A stretch of DNA of 64,000 nt from Opitutaceae bacterium EW11 (GTDB taxonomy: Bacteria; Verrucomicrobiota; Verrucomicrobiia; Opitutales; Opitutaceae), in assembly GCA_003054665.1 (NCBI GenBank), contig QAYY01000013.1, forward strand, positions 310,001 to 374,000, given 5' to 3'. Made by a program: the position numbers and the translations under genes. Below the pieces are notes generated by a model. It was not told the DNA's origin. It did no database searches and was given only the letters and a program-made list of their open reading frames with translations. Below, one piece after another: positions 21,876-26,444 of the stretch (positions are counted from its first letter, which is position 1; each line of letters opens with the position of its first letter).

Positions 21876-23165
21876 TCAGGATACGGCGAGCTTGGTCGGA
21901 GTCGCCGTTGGGAAACCGGCAGCCCAGCCGGTGCGGGCGATGGGCGGTGTGTCCGATGCGGCCGCCAGCCGTCGCTGCCGGTAGACGCTCGGGCAGAGAC
22001 CGGTCATTCTCTTGAAGAACACGGTCATGTACTCGACGTATTCGAAGCCGGTCAGGTCCGCGATTTGCTTGAGAGGCATGTCCGTTTCCGCAAGCAGCTG
22101 CCGTATCCGTGCCAGCTGTACGCGTCGGATCTCGCCGTGCGGCGTGCGGCGCAAATGGCGCCGGAACTGCTTTTCCAGCTGGGCGCGGGACATCGCGGCA
22201 ATCGGAAGCAGATCCTCGACGGTGATTCCCTGGCAGGCGCGTTCGTGAATGAATCGCAGGGCTGCCGCCACGCCTCGATTGCCGATCGCAAGATGATCCG
22301 TGGAGCGCCGGGCGACAACGCCTGCAGGCGGGATTCGGATGTCGTATGCGGTCAATGAATCTCCGACCATGAGACGGTCGAGGCAACCGGCGGCTTGGAA
22401 CCCCGTCTCGATGGGATTCAGGGCCACGCTGGAGAGCGCGGGTGACGTCAGCTCGCAGCGCACGGACTCGTTGTTGACCCCGAGCACCGCCACGTCCTCG
22501 GGCACGCTGAACCCGCTCCGCGCGACGGCTTCGAGAAGCAACTGGGCCCGAAGATCATGGCAGGTGAGGACGGCGACGGGCTTGGGCAGACCCACGACCC
22601 ATGCGGCCAGCTCCGCAAGTTGGCAGGCCTGCCACTCCGGAGTGTCGGTGCCTGGGTAATCGCACTCGTGCAGTGCGCAGGCGAAGCCGGTATTCTCCAG
22701 TGCGGCGACGAAGCCGGCGCGCCGTTCGACCGACCATGTCCGGTTGGAAAACCCGGAGAAAGCGAAGCTCCGAAAACCGCGATCGACGAAATGCTCTGCG
22801 GCGAGCTGCCCGACGGTGTTGTTATCGGGACGGATCTTGCAGACGCCGTCAAAGGTGGGGGAATCGTCGAGATCCACGAGCGGGATTCCGCGCTGGGCGC
22901 AGGCGCCGACGAGGGCCGCGGAAGTGTGGCAACTCAGGACGCCATCCCATTTCTGGGTGTAGATCCAGTGCTGGTCGGTTTCGGCCAGCCCTTCGTCGTC
23001 GAGAAAGACCGTCCAGGGCGAACGTGTGGCTTCGTGGTGGGCCACGCCCTTGAGGGCGGCGGCTGACAGCTCGTGTCGGGTGCGAAACACCAGAAGCACC
23101 CGTGGCTGCGGAGGAGCCGCCGGCCGGCGGGCGGGGGTGGAGTTGACAAGAGGAGCGAGAGGCAT
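21876..23165 (-). CDS. XylR-type regulator: LacI-like sensor domain with AraC DNA-binding domain
   Basis: A 429-residue transcription factor. Residues 20-285 resemble a periplasmic-binding-protein/LacI sensor: VLLVFRTRHELSAAALKGV, WDGVLSCHTS, PLVDLDDSP and VPEDVAVLGVNNE. The C-terminal part (about 290-395) is an AraC double helix-turn-helix with RRVQLARIRQLLAETDMPLKQIADLTGFEYVEYM. This architecture is that of E. coli XylR, and Opitutaceae carry many copies next to carbohydrate genes. Sugar sensing is inference. An 8-bp inverted repeat lies 127 bases upstream of its ATG (23292-23321). The gene probably controls the receptor downstream and perhaps the methyltransferase upstream. Confidence 0.9.
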   Translation of the reverse strand: MPLAPLVNSTPARRPAAPPQPRVLLVFRTRHELSAAALKGVAHHEATRSPWTVFLDDEGLAETDQHWIYTQKWDGVLSCHTSAALVGACAQRGIPLVDLDDSPTFDGVCKIRPDNNTVGQLAAEHFVDRGFRSFAFSGFSNRTWSVERRAGFVAALENTGFACALHECDYPGTDTPEWQACQLAELAAWVVGLPKPVAVLTCHDLRAQLLLEAVARSGFSVPEDVAVLGVNNESVRCELTSPALSSVALNPIETGFQAAGCLDRLMVGDSLTAYDIRIPPAGVVARRSTDHLAIGNRGVAAALRFIHERACQGITVEDLLPIAAMSRAQLEKQFRRHLRRTPHGEIRRVQLARIRQLLAETDMPLKQIADLTGFEYVEYMTVFFKRMTGLCPSVYRQRRLAAASDTPPIARTGWAAGFPTATPTKLAVS

Positions 23166-23394: not shown

Positions 23395-24465
23395 TTACTC
23401 GCCGGACAGTCCGGTACGCAGCAGCCGAGCCACCTTGGCCCGGATGGTGTCGGCGCAACCATCGACGTGCAGCGTGTCGCATTCGGTGCCGAGAATGAAC
23501 GCGTGCCCGGTCGATTTCATGCGCCGGGCGAGATCGGCCGCCATTTCGTCCACTTTGTCGGCCGGCATCACGCTATCCGAGTAGAACTGTTTCGACGGCA
23601 GATTGCCGTACAGGACGATGTCGTCGGGAATCCGGAGGGCGTCTTCCCAAAGCCGGCGCGAGCTTCCGAGCGACAGCAGAGCGGGGCGGAGGGAGCAGAA
23701 TCCGTCGAGCATGGCGTCCGTGAGCTCTCCACAACAATGGAAGAGGAAGTCCGCGTTCCGGCGTTCGATCAGTTCCGCGATCGTCCGATTCGGAGCGAGT
23801 GCGCAGCATTCGAACGCCGTACCGCCCGCGGCCATTTGCTTCGGGGAAAAGTAGACCTTGTTTGCCGCCGGATCCGCGAGGAATACCGCCGTCGCGCCTG
23901 CATCGAGGAGCTCCGTGACGGACTGCAGCACCACAGCTCGCGCGAGCCGGAGAGCGGTTTCGAGCAGGGCAACCTCCGGTTCGTCCGCTGCTGTCGCCCC
24001 TTCGCCCGCAAGGTAGACGGGGGTGATCGGATCGTTGAGCAGTTTGGTCGTCAGCGAGAACGGTCCGATGCACATGGCGATCGGGACCAATGCTGTTCGT
24101 TGGGCAATGAAGCGAATGGCTCCGAGATTCGCGGCCACCCTCGACGGCGGTGGATTGACGGGGAGCGCGCCTTCAAAACGGGCAATCGTCGCGTCATCGG
24201 GAAGCTGTTCGAGATGGAACGTATCGGCCTCTTCTGTCGCGACGCCGAGGAGCGACACCAATCGCGCTTTCTCGAGCTTCAGGTCCATCAGCGGGAAAGC
24301 CAGCGGCGAGCTGAATTCGGCGGCGGCTTCGGCGATGACCGCTCCCAGTCTTTCGCCATCGAGGAGGATTTCCTCGGCGTCGCGGTGCCGGCGGAGCACA
24401 AGATCGGCGGCAATCGGCACTCGGTGCCCCTGTCGAGCCAAGGCTAGGAATGCGGACCGCGACAT
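23395..24465 (-). CDS. Uroporphyrinogen-decarboxylase-family zinc methyltransferase (MtaA/CmuA-like)
   Basis: A 356-residue TIM-barrel protein of the UroD superfamily. It has the zinc-ligand pattern of the corrinoid methyltransferases MtaA/CmuA rather than a haem-pathway HemE: His243-x-Cys245 in FHCCGEL and Cys329 in GTECDTLH. HemE motifs are absent. Such enzymes move a methyl group between a corrinoid protein and a thiol or other acceptor. The corrinoid protein gene lies directly upstream, 84 or more bases away on the same strand, which strongly supports this. The methyl donor and final acceptor cannot be read. Confidence 0.85.
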   Translation of the reverse strand: MSRSAFLALARQGHRVPIAADLVLRRHRDAEEILLDGERLGAVIAEAAAEFSSPLAFPLMDLKLEKARLVSLLGVATEEADTFHLEQLPDDATIARFEGALPVNPPPSRVAANLGAIRFIAQRTALVPIAMCIGPFSLTTKLLNDPITPVYLAGEGATAADEPEVALLETALRLARAVVLQSVTELLDAGATAVFLADPAANKVYFSPKQMAAGGTAFECCALAPNRTIAELIERRNADFLFHCCGELTDAMLDGFCSLRPALLSLGSSRRLWEDALRIPDDIVLYGNLPSKQFYSDSVMPADKVDEMAADLARRMKSTGHAFILGTECDTLHVDGCADTIRAKVARLLRTGLSGE

Positions 24466-24549
24466 GGGGGTGCAGGCGTATGGAATCGCGTCGCCCGGTT
24501 GTCCGCCCGAGCGGACTTGGCTCCGGCGAGACCCGAGCTTCGGCGACGA

Positions 24550-25182
24550 TCAGGCTCCTATCAGCTCGAGGGCTTTGTCGACCGAGCTGGAAGCGTCGGG
24601 CGCATAGCCGTCCGCGCCGATCTCTTCGGCGAACTGCCGACTGACGGGGGCGCCGCCCACAAGGATCTTCACGGGAGGGCAATCGCCGGTGCGGATGGCG
24701 CGGATCGTGGCACCCATCGCCGGCATGGTCGTCGTGAGCAGTGCGGATAACCCGACGATCTGCGGCTGGTGCTGTTTGATCGCGGCCACGAACTTGGATG
24801 CCGGGACATTTACACCGAGATCGATCACGCGGAAATTCGCTCCCTTCCAAAGAATGGTGACGAGGTTTTTGCCGATGTCGTGGAGGTCTCCTTGGACCGT
24901 GCCGATCACGGCGGTGAACTTCGGAGTGATGCCTGCCGCGACCAGCCGGGGTTCCAGGAGCGTCATCGATTCTTTCATGGCGCGAGCCGAGATGAGCATC
25001 TCCGGCACGAAGATTTCTCCGTTTTTAAACCGTTCACCGACGACCGACATCGCGGGCACGAGGGCCTGATCTACGACGTCGCCGGGGCGGGTTCCTTCAT
25101 CGAGCGCGAGTTGGGTGAGCGTCTTGGCGTCCTTGCTCTTGCCCGCCACCACCGCCTGGGAAAGGGATTCGAGGGTCGTCAT
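24550..25182 (-). CDS. Methyltransferase cognate corrinoid (B12-binding) protein
   Basis: A 210-residue carrier of the MtaC/MtbC/MetH-cap type. A helical cap domain (residues 1-85, with VPEMLISARAMKESM) is followed by a Rossmann B12 domain. That domain has the cobalt-ligand motif GDLHDIGKNL (lower-axial His101), then GLSALLTTTMPAM and ILVGGAPVSRQFAEEIGADGY. It shuttles a methyl group on cobalamin between two methyltransferases; only one is encoded here. The ATG at 25182 was preferred over a TTG nine bases upstream. The AraC/PocR-type regulator ends about a dozen bases before it, so all three are likely one transcript. Confidence 0.93.
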   Translation of the reverse strand: MTTLESLSQAVVAGKSKDAKTLTQLALDEGTRPGDVVDQALVPAMSVVGERFKNGEIFVPEMLISARAMKESMTLLEPRLVAAGITPKFTAVIGTVQGDLHDIGKNLVTILWKGANFRVIDLGVNVPASKFVAAIKQHQPQIVGLSALLTTTMPAMGATIRAIRTGDCPPVKILVGGAPVSRQFAEEIGADGYAPDASSSVDKALELIGA

Positions 25183-25193
25183 GATGCTCAAGA

Positions 25194-26444
25194 CTAACAG
25201 CGCACGGCGGCTCCTGGCTTGTAGAGCCGTGCGGAAGTTTGGGACTTTGGTGCGGAAGCGTTCCGGATCGGGCGTTTCGCCCGTCGGAATTCACTAGGCG
25301 TGAGCCGATGCGTTTTGCGGAAAACCCGAGTGAAATAGCTCTGGTCGGTAAAGCCGCACGCGGCCGCTACGTGCGCCAACTCCGCATCCGTGTGGACGAG
25401 CAGGCTTCTCGCTCTTTCGAGACGCATGCGGGTCAATAACTGCGTGAACGTGCATCCCATCCTCGCCTTCATGAGGTGCGAGAAGTGGCTCGGGGAGAGT
25501 CCGGCGGCGCGTGCCACCTCCTCGCGTGGAAGCGCCTCGGCCAGGTGCTCCTCAACATATTTCACTGCGCGGGCCAGCTGACTGGAGCCCGGGAGGCGGC
25601 TGTTCGATTCGATGGCATCAATCAACGATTCCAGCATCCGACAGAGCCAGCCTGCCAAGTCCTCCTGGTCGGAAATATCGGCGAGTCGGGAGAGTGACTG
25701 GTAGTTCAGACCAAGGATGTTTTCTGGGTTTCCGCCTGCCTGGACTGCGGTGCGCGTCATCGTGACGACGAGTTCCAGCGCCAGGCTCTTCAGGAGCTCG
25801 ATCCGTGACTGACCGAGCATGTAGATCGCGGTGAGGACTCGGTTGATCGCATGGCGTGCGGCGCTCCGTTCGCCCCGGCGAATCGCGGCGATCAGTGCGG
25901 GTTCCTCGCGCAGATAGATGCTGCGGATCGTGTCAAAGGTGCCCTCTTTCATGAGGTGCAGCGCTTCAGCCTTTTCCTGCTCGCGACGGGCGGTCTCGCG
26001 CCGCTCTGAAAGGAGCGGCGCGTTGACCAAATTGTAGCGTGTTCCGAGTTCGAGCAGGACGCGGCAGGCGGAGACGACGCGCTGATCGAGTGCGCCAGCC
26101 TTCGACGGACGGCGTAGACGGGTGACGGTTACGACCAAGCCGCCCAGCAGCTTTTGGTTTTGGCAGACTGGAATCGCCCAAAGCACACCTTCGATACCGT
26201 CGCTGAGGACACTCGGTTCGCCCCAGCGCAACGCTTCTGAAACCGCATGTTTTCTCAGATCGCTGACGGAACGGCCTTCTGATGGGCGCTCCGCTCCCCC
26301 GCGCCGTAGCTTCCCGTCGGAGTCGCACGCGCAGATCTCGAATCCGCAGGCTCGCCGGTATTCCGCGGCAAGCGCTGCGAATTGGGCCGAACTGAGAAGA
26401 CCGGGAAAGGGCGCCGAGGGTGCACGGCGCGAGCCGACTCGCAT
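25194..26444 (-). CDS. AraC-family regulator with PocR-type ligand-sensing domain
   Basis: A 416-residue transcription factor. The N-terminal region (about 1-180) has the PocR-type sensor pattern: LRKHAVSEALRWGEPSVLSD and LWAIPVCQNQKLLGGLVVT. A helical middle region follows with a long acidic helix. The last 100 residues are an AraC helix-turn-helix pair (LPREEVARAAGLSPSHFSHLMKARMG and VAAACGFTDQSYFTRVFRKTHRLTPSEFRRAK). PocR domains bind small hydrocarbon derivatives such as 1,3-propanediol and are common beside corrinoid methyltransferases. The start at 26444 is a guess among several; the frame is open to 26906. A direct role in switching on the methyltransferase genes is likely from the tandem arrangement. 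Confidence 0.85.
   Translation of the reverse strand: MRVGSRRAPSAPFPGLLSSAQFAALAAEYRRACGFEICACDSDGKLRRGGAERPSEGRSVSDLRKHAVSEALRWGEPSVLSDGIEGVLWAIPVCQNQKLLGGLVVTVTRLRRPSKAGALDQRVVSACRVLLELGTRYNLVNAPLLSERRETARREQEKAEALHLMKEGTFDTIRSIYLREEPALIAAIRRGERSAARHAINRVLTAIYMLGQSRIELLKSLALELVVTMTRTAVQAGGNPENILGLNYQSLSRLADISDQEDLAGWLCRMLESLIDAIESNSRLPGSSQLARAVKYVEEHLAEALPREEVARAAGLSPSHFSHLMKARMGCTFTQLLTRMRLERARSLLVHTDAELAHVAAACGFTDQSYFTRVFRKTHRLTPSEFRRAKRPIRNASAPKSQTSARLYKPGAAVRC

Follow-up and report, generated by a model that had tools for sequence, protein, structure and literature searches.

A conserved UroD-fold methyltransferase, predicted to act on sulphur, in a corrinoid methyl-transfer trio of Opitutaceae bacterium EW11

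In Opitutaceae bacterium EW11, a gene for a UroD-fold methyltransferase (UroD1) lies directly behind the genes for a corrinoid carrier protein (Corr1) and an AraC-type regulator, which raises the question of what chemistry a set with a single methyltransferase can support. The genes lie in a stretch of 64,000 nucleotides, here called the window (contig QAYY01000013.1, C5:310001-374000 in our numbering of the 6.4 Mb genome, G000). Our findings show that regulator, Corr1 and UroD1 are a genuine corrinoid methyl-transfer trio. The family of UroD1 is uncharacterised and spans several bacterial phyla, so that the trio represents a poorly known part of one-carbon metabolism and not an oddity. The likely substrate class shifts from methoxyl compounds, as first proposed, to sulphur.

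The three reading frames are intact and lie in line on the minus strand, as the original prediction had described. The regulator (25194..26444, 416 amino acids) comes first and is followed after 11 bases by Corr1 (24550..25182, 210 amino acids) and after a further 84 bases by UroD1 (23395..24465, 356 amino acids); start codons are inferred, and the regulator frame stays open up to 26906. Corr1 has the composition of methyltransferase corrinoid proteins, a cap domain (Pfam B12-binding_2, 78.5 bits) and a B12-binding domain (87.8 bits) with the DxHxxG motif, and its closest solved relative is 1y80 (E 2.7e-53). Its top NCBIfam model is MtgC_2 with 196 bits against a cut-off of 370, which does not make it an MtgC. 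Position 101 of Corr1 is histidine in VQGDLHDIGKNLV (codon 24880..24882, motif GDLHDIGKN) and is kept in all ten corrinoid proteins aligned; from the B12-binding family we take it to be the cobalt ligand. The regulator carries the Pfam domains HTH_18 (88 bits) and HTH_AraC. It had been described as a PocR/AraC sensor, and the AraC part of this description stands, while no PocR domain (PF10114) was found in the window's copy with Pfam at E ≤ 1. Since PocR was matched in three of five aligned regulators (best E 4.4e-7) and not in this one, homology alone supports calling its N-terminal sensor a PocR domain, one that has diverged.

The association of these genes goes beyond chance, because 39 of 87 UroD1 loci have a Corr1-related gene in the stretch that was fetched, and in 26 the two genes share a strand and lie within 300 bases of each other. 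A homologue of the regulator was found in 18 of the 87. The 87 loci include the window, and all counts over them are lower bounds because many of the fetched loci are short. Seven of 93 relatives' loci, in which UroD1 was uncalled, lie outside this set (L028, L029, L032, L063, L070, L082 and L088); L028 and L070 stem from one contig, which carries UroD1 and Corr genes despite its exclusion. The predicted module with a regulator of its own is thus borne out by Pfam domains and by recurring neighbours.

UroD1 occurs in 12 of the 115 genomes searched, EW11 included, with two copies each in G020 and G063, and 171 stretches with relatives were found in a species-level genome collection. The 80 of these that were fetched, nearly all from metagenome-assembled genomes, represent by their titles at least nine phyla: Planctomycetota, Verrucomicrobiota, Armatimonadota, Lentisphaerota, Acidobacteriota, Sumerlaeota, Spirochaetota, Pseudomonadota and Kiritimatiellota. 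Corrinoid demethylation had been regarded as less expected in such an organism, a view that does not hold up: relatives of UroD1 are common in Verrucomicrobiota and several further phyla. In the UroD1 tree the window copy groups with that of G003 (100/97), and then with L040 (Lacunisphaera) and L041 (100/99). Phylum labels change 21 times on the tree, compared with a possible minimum of 8 and a mean of 44 after shuffling, and this mixing may reflect transfer, paralogy or binning.

What kind of methyltransferase is UroD1? The URO-D match (PF01208, 33.5 bits, cut-off 23.9) together with the fold places it in the UroD superfamily. An AlphaFold model built with 66 sequences has the UroD fold at a predicted local distance difference test score (pLDDT) of 96.2. 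VIA-align ranks MtaA (4ay7) first with Z 30.1, a root-mean-square deviation of 3.0 and 308 aligned positions, followed by HemE structures at Z 28.8 and below and MetE at about 21; Foldseek places HemE and MtaA level at E about 1e-9. The UroD1 sequence had no match among solved structures at E ≤ 0.001, and the best E of its profile was 0.0055. UroD1 scores far under the cut-off of every curated methyltransferase model matched, including the MtaA/MtbA-type NCBIfam models (24.3 vs 244, 16.3 vs 400 and 16 vs 600 bits). Identity with HemE was rejected: the hemE equivalog model is absent among the NCBIfam matches of UroD1 at E ≤ 0.01, and a separate URO-D copy of 385 bits lies at C27:342850.

His243 (codon 23737..23739), Cys245 (23731..23733) and Cys329 (23479..23481), which the original prediction had read as zinc ligands, are found at these positions and are identical, as is Glu328, in all 66 UroD1 proteins aligned. 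In the sections of Kountz and Balskus (PMC10418091) that deal with this motif, His-Cys-Cys marks the S- and Se-methyltransferases of the UroD superfamily, and O-type enzymes have one or both cysteines lost, with Asp, Glu or a non-ligand in their place; the rule is empirical. It also has limits, because two relatives, CdmB and the O-demethylase of Moorella, are reported to be active without zinc (PMC13222342). Due to the conservation of His-Cys-Cys throughout the family and to this rule, UroD1 is most likely an S-type methyltransferase, in which the three residues would bind zinc. A selenium substrate, a role proposed for related S-type clusters, is unlikely, because SelD (E ≤ 1e-20) was found in 4 of the 115 genomes and in none of the 12 with UroD1.

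The motif also bears on the reading given first, in which UroD1 is an O- or N-demethylase that takes methyl groups from methoxyaromatics, methanol or betaine and loads them onto Corr1. The superfamily itself, a gene order akin to O-demethylase operons, the activators and acceptors present in the genome and the zinc-free O-demethylases of PMC13222342, as far as that source describes them, all fit such an enzyme. None of the 66 relatives has a carboxylate or a missing cysteine at the three positions, a separate MtaB-MtaC-RamA cluster is available for methanol, and the enzymes known to act on betaine fall into a different Pfam family, PF06253 (PMC12478193). These substrates are therefore disfavoured, and we consider the demethylase reading improbable.

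The trio contains one methyltransferase, and its partners had been expected elsewhere in the genome, where they were indeed found. RACo-type activators (RACo_C_ter) are encoded at C27:532293 and C3:442340, so that the genome has the reductive activator that was looked for. The C27 locus also encodes a second UroD protein, UroD2, and a homocysteine S-methyltransferase. The C3 cluster (C3:441230-443113; L026:7671-12552) is a methanol-type system of MtaB (655 bits, cut-off 720), an MtaC-like protein (259, cut-off 420), RamA (705, cut-off 500) and DUF1638. With RACo, UroD2, MtaB and RamA, the genome holds the further methyl-transfer and activation genes whose absence would have told against the module. 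Of the six B12-binding matches in the genome, Corr1 and the MtaC-like protein are the candidate methyl carriers outside MetH, a two-part enzyme that adjoins genes resembling cobalamin salvage and uptake (names judged by eye). Apart from MetH, a PF00809 scan of the genome matched a single open frame (286 amino acids), probably a dihydropteroate synthase, and hence revealed no enzyme dedicated to folate as methyl acceptor. Likewise no MtaA was found for the MtaB-MtaC pair of C3 in a PF01208 scan of the genome, which was non-exhaustive: it returned the HemE-like copy and UroD2 and missed UroD1.

Among the relatives, UroD1 is the constant member beside methyltransferases that vary. Within the 87 loci we counted UroD2-type proteins in 19, UroD3-type in 8, MtaB in 8 and the MWK family in 7, as well as RACo in 23 and DUF1638 in 21. 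Some RACo matches seemed to contain in-frame stops; in the single one set against a gene call (G045, L031), the match had run on beyond the natural end of the gene. Rich clusters combine a single UroD1 with several different methyltransferases (L073, L064, L118, L100 and L102); that of L073 has MtaB, four UroD2-type and three UroD3-type proteins and MWK, and those of L064 and L118 also include MtaB. By pattern, not by structure, the O-type motif was read in 7 of 15 UroD3-type proteins (H-T-D) and in 6 of 8 MWK proteins (H-L-D). In BLAST searches a homocysteine methyltransferase was found in 13 of the 87 loci and a PF00809-type folate methyltransferase in one. A close Corr1 (a match of at least 285 bits) is present in all 12 UroD1 genomes among the 115. 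We also searched 35 genomes picked for having no Corr gene directly beside UroD1, representing 34 of the 51 loci without a called Corr (17 were left out) and L044, where Corr is 3.6 kb off. A Corr match of at least 200 bits was present in 33 of them; in G145 the sole such match is part of a longer open frame (806 amino acids), and G119 and G123 have MetH-like or weak matches only.

Tentatively, we favour a reading in which the parts of one corrinoid system are dispersed over the genome: Corr1 would be its carrier and UroD1 the methyltransferase on the sulphur side, with the methyl group moved from Corr1 to a thiol. The cobalt of Corr1 would be reduced to Co(I) by a RACo or RamA activator encoded elsewhere, and substrate-specific methyltransferases located elsewhere would load the methyl group; candidate loaders in EW11 are the O-type UroD2 of C27 and the MtaB of C3, a putative pairing. 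UroD1 with its His-Cys-Cys site would then methylate a thiol bound to zinc, in the manner of MtaA and coenzyme M, and the PocR/AraC protein would turn on Corr1 and UroD1 when the methyl compound or a product is present. This direction is favoured because UroD1 stays constant beside variable methyltransferases, because a folate acceptor enzyme hardly ever lies near it, and because EW11 has an O-type UroD2 without carrier and an MtaB-MtaC pair without visible MtaA. In an extended version, which we regard as unlikely, UroD1 would play the part of MtaA in bacteria, as a shared collector that via Corr1 stores or passes on methyl groups on a small thiol. The C27 cluster would then use the window's Corr1, and O-methyl sugars from xylan (C27) and methanol (via MtaB) would feed a methyl-thiol hub outside methanogens.

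Several observations weigh against transfer from Corr1 to a thiol. The direction of methyl transfer is not readable from sequence, and the His-Cys-Cys rule itself is empirical, with CdmB and the Moorella O-demethylase functioning without zinc in the account of PMC13222342. UroD1 is no obligatory partner of Corr1, because of 26 genomes with a close Corr1 only 12 have UroD1 and 14 lack it; a role as universal methyl acceptor enzyme for Corr1 is rejected on the same count. In eight of the ten Corr1-only genomes fetched from these 14, MtaB or UroD2/3-type genes are present in the stretch. In two UroD1 genomes, G125 and G127, a folate methyltransferase is part of a Corr1-type cluster, and the homocysteine methyltransferase that shares clusters with UroD1 could already be the acceptor enzyme. 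Neither is UroD1 the sole S-type protein, since the H-x-C...C pattern was read in 9 of 27 UroD2-type neighbours, three of them in L073. Because UroD1 itself went undetected in the PF01208 scan, that scan may have overlooked further divergent UroD proteins, even one resembling MtaA.

A second reading keeps the chemistry and turns the direction round. UroD1 would demethylate a methyl-sulphur compound such as methanethiol, dimethylsulfide or a methylthio-nucleoside and load Corr1, from which the homocysteine S-methyltransferase of C27 or MetH would make methionine; the trio would be a switch for methyl-sulphur scavenging. The His-Cys-Cys site suits this reaction equally, and a dedicated regulator suits a substrate-specific donor enzyme. 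A homocysteine methyltransferase is present in 13 of the 87 loci and in EW11 itself, and the split methionine synthase offers a precedent with the same helpers, RamA-like and DUF1638. No sulphur-metabolism family is prominent among the widely shared neighbours, which were the only neighbours annotated, and a selenium variant is unlikely in view of the SelD counts. We consider this direction doubtful on present evidence; thioether scavenging with homocysteine as the final acceptor is nearly as likely as transfer from Corr1 to a thiol.

Homocysteine could also be the thiol that UroD1 methylates from Corr1, in an accessory branch of methionine synthesis beside the two-part MetH. In its favour, the UroD1 model aligns at Z about 21 with structures of MetE, an enzyme in which homocysteine is bound at zinc, and Corr1 is most like MtgC. 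Against this, the genome already has the two-part MetH and a separate homocysteine methyltransferase, and UroD1 and homocysteine methyltransferase share clusters. Such a branch is in our view very improbable.

The preferred route from Corr1 to a thiol needs methyl sources, and the C27 cluster (C27:527147-536733, equal to L025:2648-12234) offers a candidate. It encodes GH115, a UxuA-like protein, RACo, a protein of ~260 amino acids, UroD2, homocysteine S-methyltransferase and an SDR protein, and neither a corrinoid gene nor a folate methyltransferase gene was found in it. UroD2 has the pattern HND...GGGT without a later cysteine and is thus O-type by pattern. GH115 enzymes free (methyl)glucuronic acid from xylan, and 4-O-methylglucuronate is a common side group of this polymer. 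In G003 (L141) a fuller version lies on one strand, with GH115, a regulator, UxuA, RACo, two unassigned proteins and an O-type UroD2, followed by a corrinoid protein, arabinofuranosidase, MTHFR, a PF00809 protein, an amidohydrolase, homocysteine methyltransferase and SDR. The core of UxuA, RACo, unassigned protein and UroD2 recurs in L142, L144, L145 and L149, in L145 with one further gene separating UxuA from RACo; in L146 RACo, unassigned protein, UroD2 and Corr are present, with no UxuA within the stretch. Only in L025 and L141 was a GH115 gene recognised. We propose these clusters as a candidate corrinoid O-demethylation route for the 4-O-methyl-D-glucuronate of glucuronoxylan, for which no report was found in the open-access literature.

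Some features of these loci and of the window deserve mention in their own right. Between RACo and UroD2 lie two conserved genes without Pfam match (L141:11547-11873, ~110 amino acids; L141:11870-13231, ~260-450 amino acids), of which only the larger was seen in L025 (L025:8533-9321), where it has no Pfam or NCBIfam match. An amidohydrolase-like gene (L141:3076-4350, L129:10003-11253, L147:9718-11007) recurs in nine loci, eight of them with a PF00809-type methyltransferase, and could be an unrecognised folate-pathway hydrolase. A plasmid search with UroD2, not UroD1, as query found a frame with 69% identity in a Gemmatirosa kalamazoonensis plasmid of 1.1 Mb (NZ_CP007129.1:929696-930742); this match in another phylum suggests lateral transfer of UroD2. 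Two members of the MWK family (L073:15081-16193 and eight relatives, ~370 amino acids) were scanned and gave no Pfam match. The family's model (pLDDT 90.6) adopts the UroD fold, with MtaA and HemE at Z about 20, the motif is mostly H-L-D, and on this basis MWK is probably an undescribed methyltransferase family. L148:4484-6280 encodes a fusion of 598 amino acids between a UroD enzyme and a corrinoid-binding protein, an arrangement like that of CmuA. In the window, a sugar-type regulator downstream of UroD1 (21876..23165, minus strand) combines a periplasmic-binding domain (Peripla_BP_3, 111 bits) with an AraC helix-turn-helix (HTH_18, 72 bits) and is a candidate member of the module.

In conclusion, a strictly conserved UroD family, S-type by motif, spans many phyla together with a corrinoid carrier and changing methyltransferases. 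If UroD1 methylates thiols, these bacteria would have a corrinoid methyl route without a dedicated folate methyltransferase, and the xylan-type cluster suggests a testable path by which the methyl ether of 4-O-methylglucuronate may be processed.

We found no on-point report of a UroD1-type system in the open-access literature, including the accessible part of PMC11264602, and several known systems resemble it in part. The O-demethylases and haloalkane enzymes MtvB, OdmB, VdmB, MtoB and CdmB likewise pair a UroD superfamily enzyme with a corrinoid protein; by their descriptions they are set apart from UroD1, which is S-type by motif and has no adjoining folate methyltransferase. Type 1 mlp clusters, as a section of PMC10418091 describes them, share with the trio an S-type UroD, a corrinoid protein and the lack of a folate methyltransferase in the cluster. 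In contrast, the window has one UroD gene, no Mlp2+Mlp3 set and no Ram, RACE or RACo in the cluster; compared by description, the relatives' clusters mix the S-type with O-type UroD, MtaB and DUF1638, and UroD1 genomes lack SelD (0 of 12). The split methionine synthase and betaine demethylase system of Phaeobacter and Ruegeria consists of MtgC, MtgD, MtgE, RamA and DUF1638 in the relevant parts of PMC5764234 and PMC12478193. UroD1 loci resemble it in an MtgC-like corrinoid protein, PF02574, a RACo-type activator and DUF1638. They differ in the donor, which is MttB-type there and UroD-type here, and in the PF00809 partner, which is present in one of 87 loci, and the EW11 genome also has MetH. 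Closest in structure are MtaA and MtbA, the methylcobamide:coenzyme M methyltransferases of methanogens, which share the UroD fold (nearest solved structure 4ay7). To our knowledge, coenzyme M is not to be expected in Opitutaceae bacterium EW11. UroD1 differs from MtaA and MtbA by an identity of 16%, by scores of at most 24.3 bits against curated cut-offs of 244-600 and by its adjoining PocR-like AraC regulator, and it shares with them the His-Cys-Cys motif of the rule given in PMC10418091 for the superfamily.

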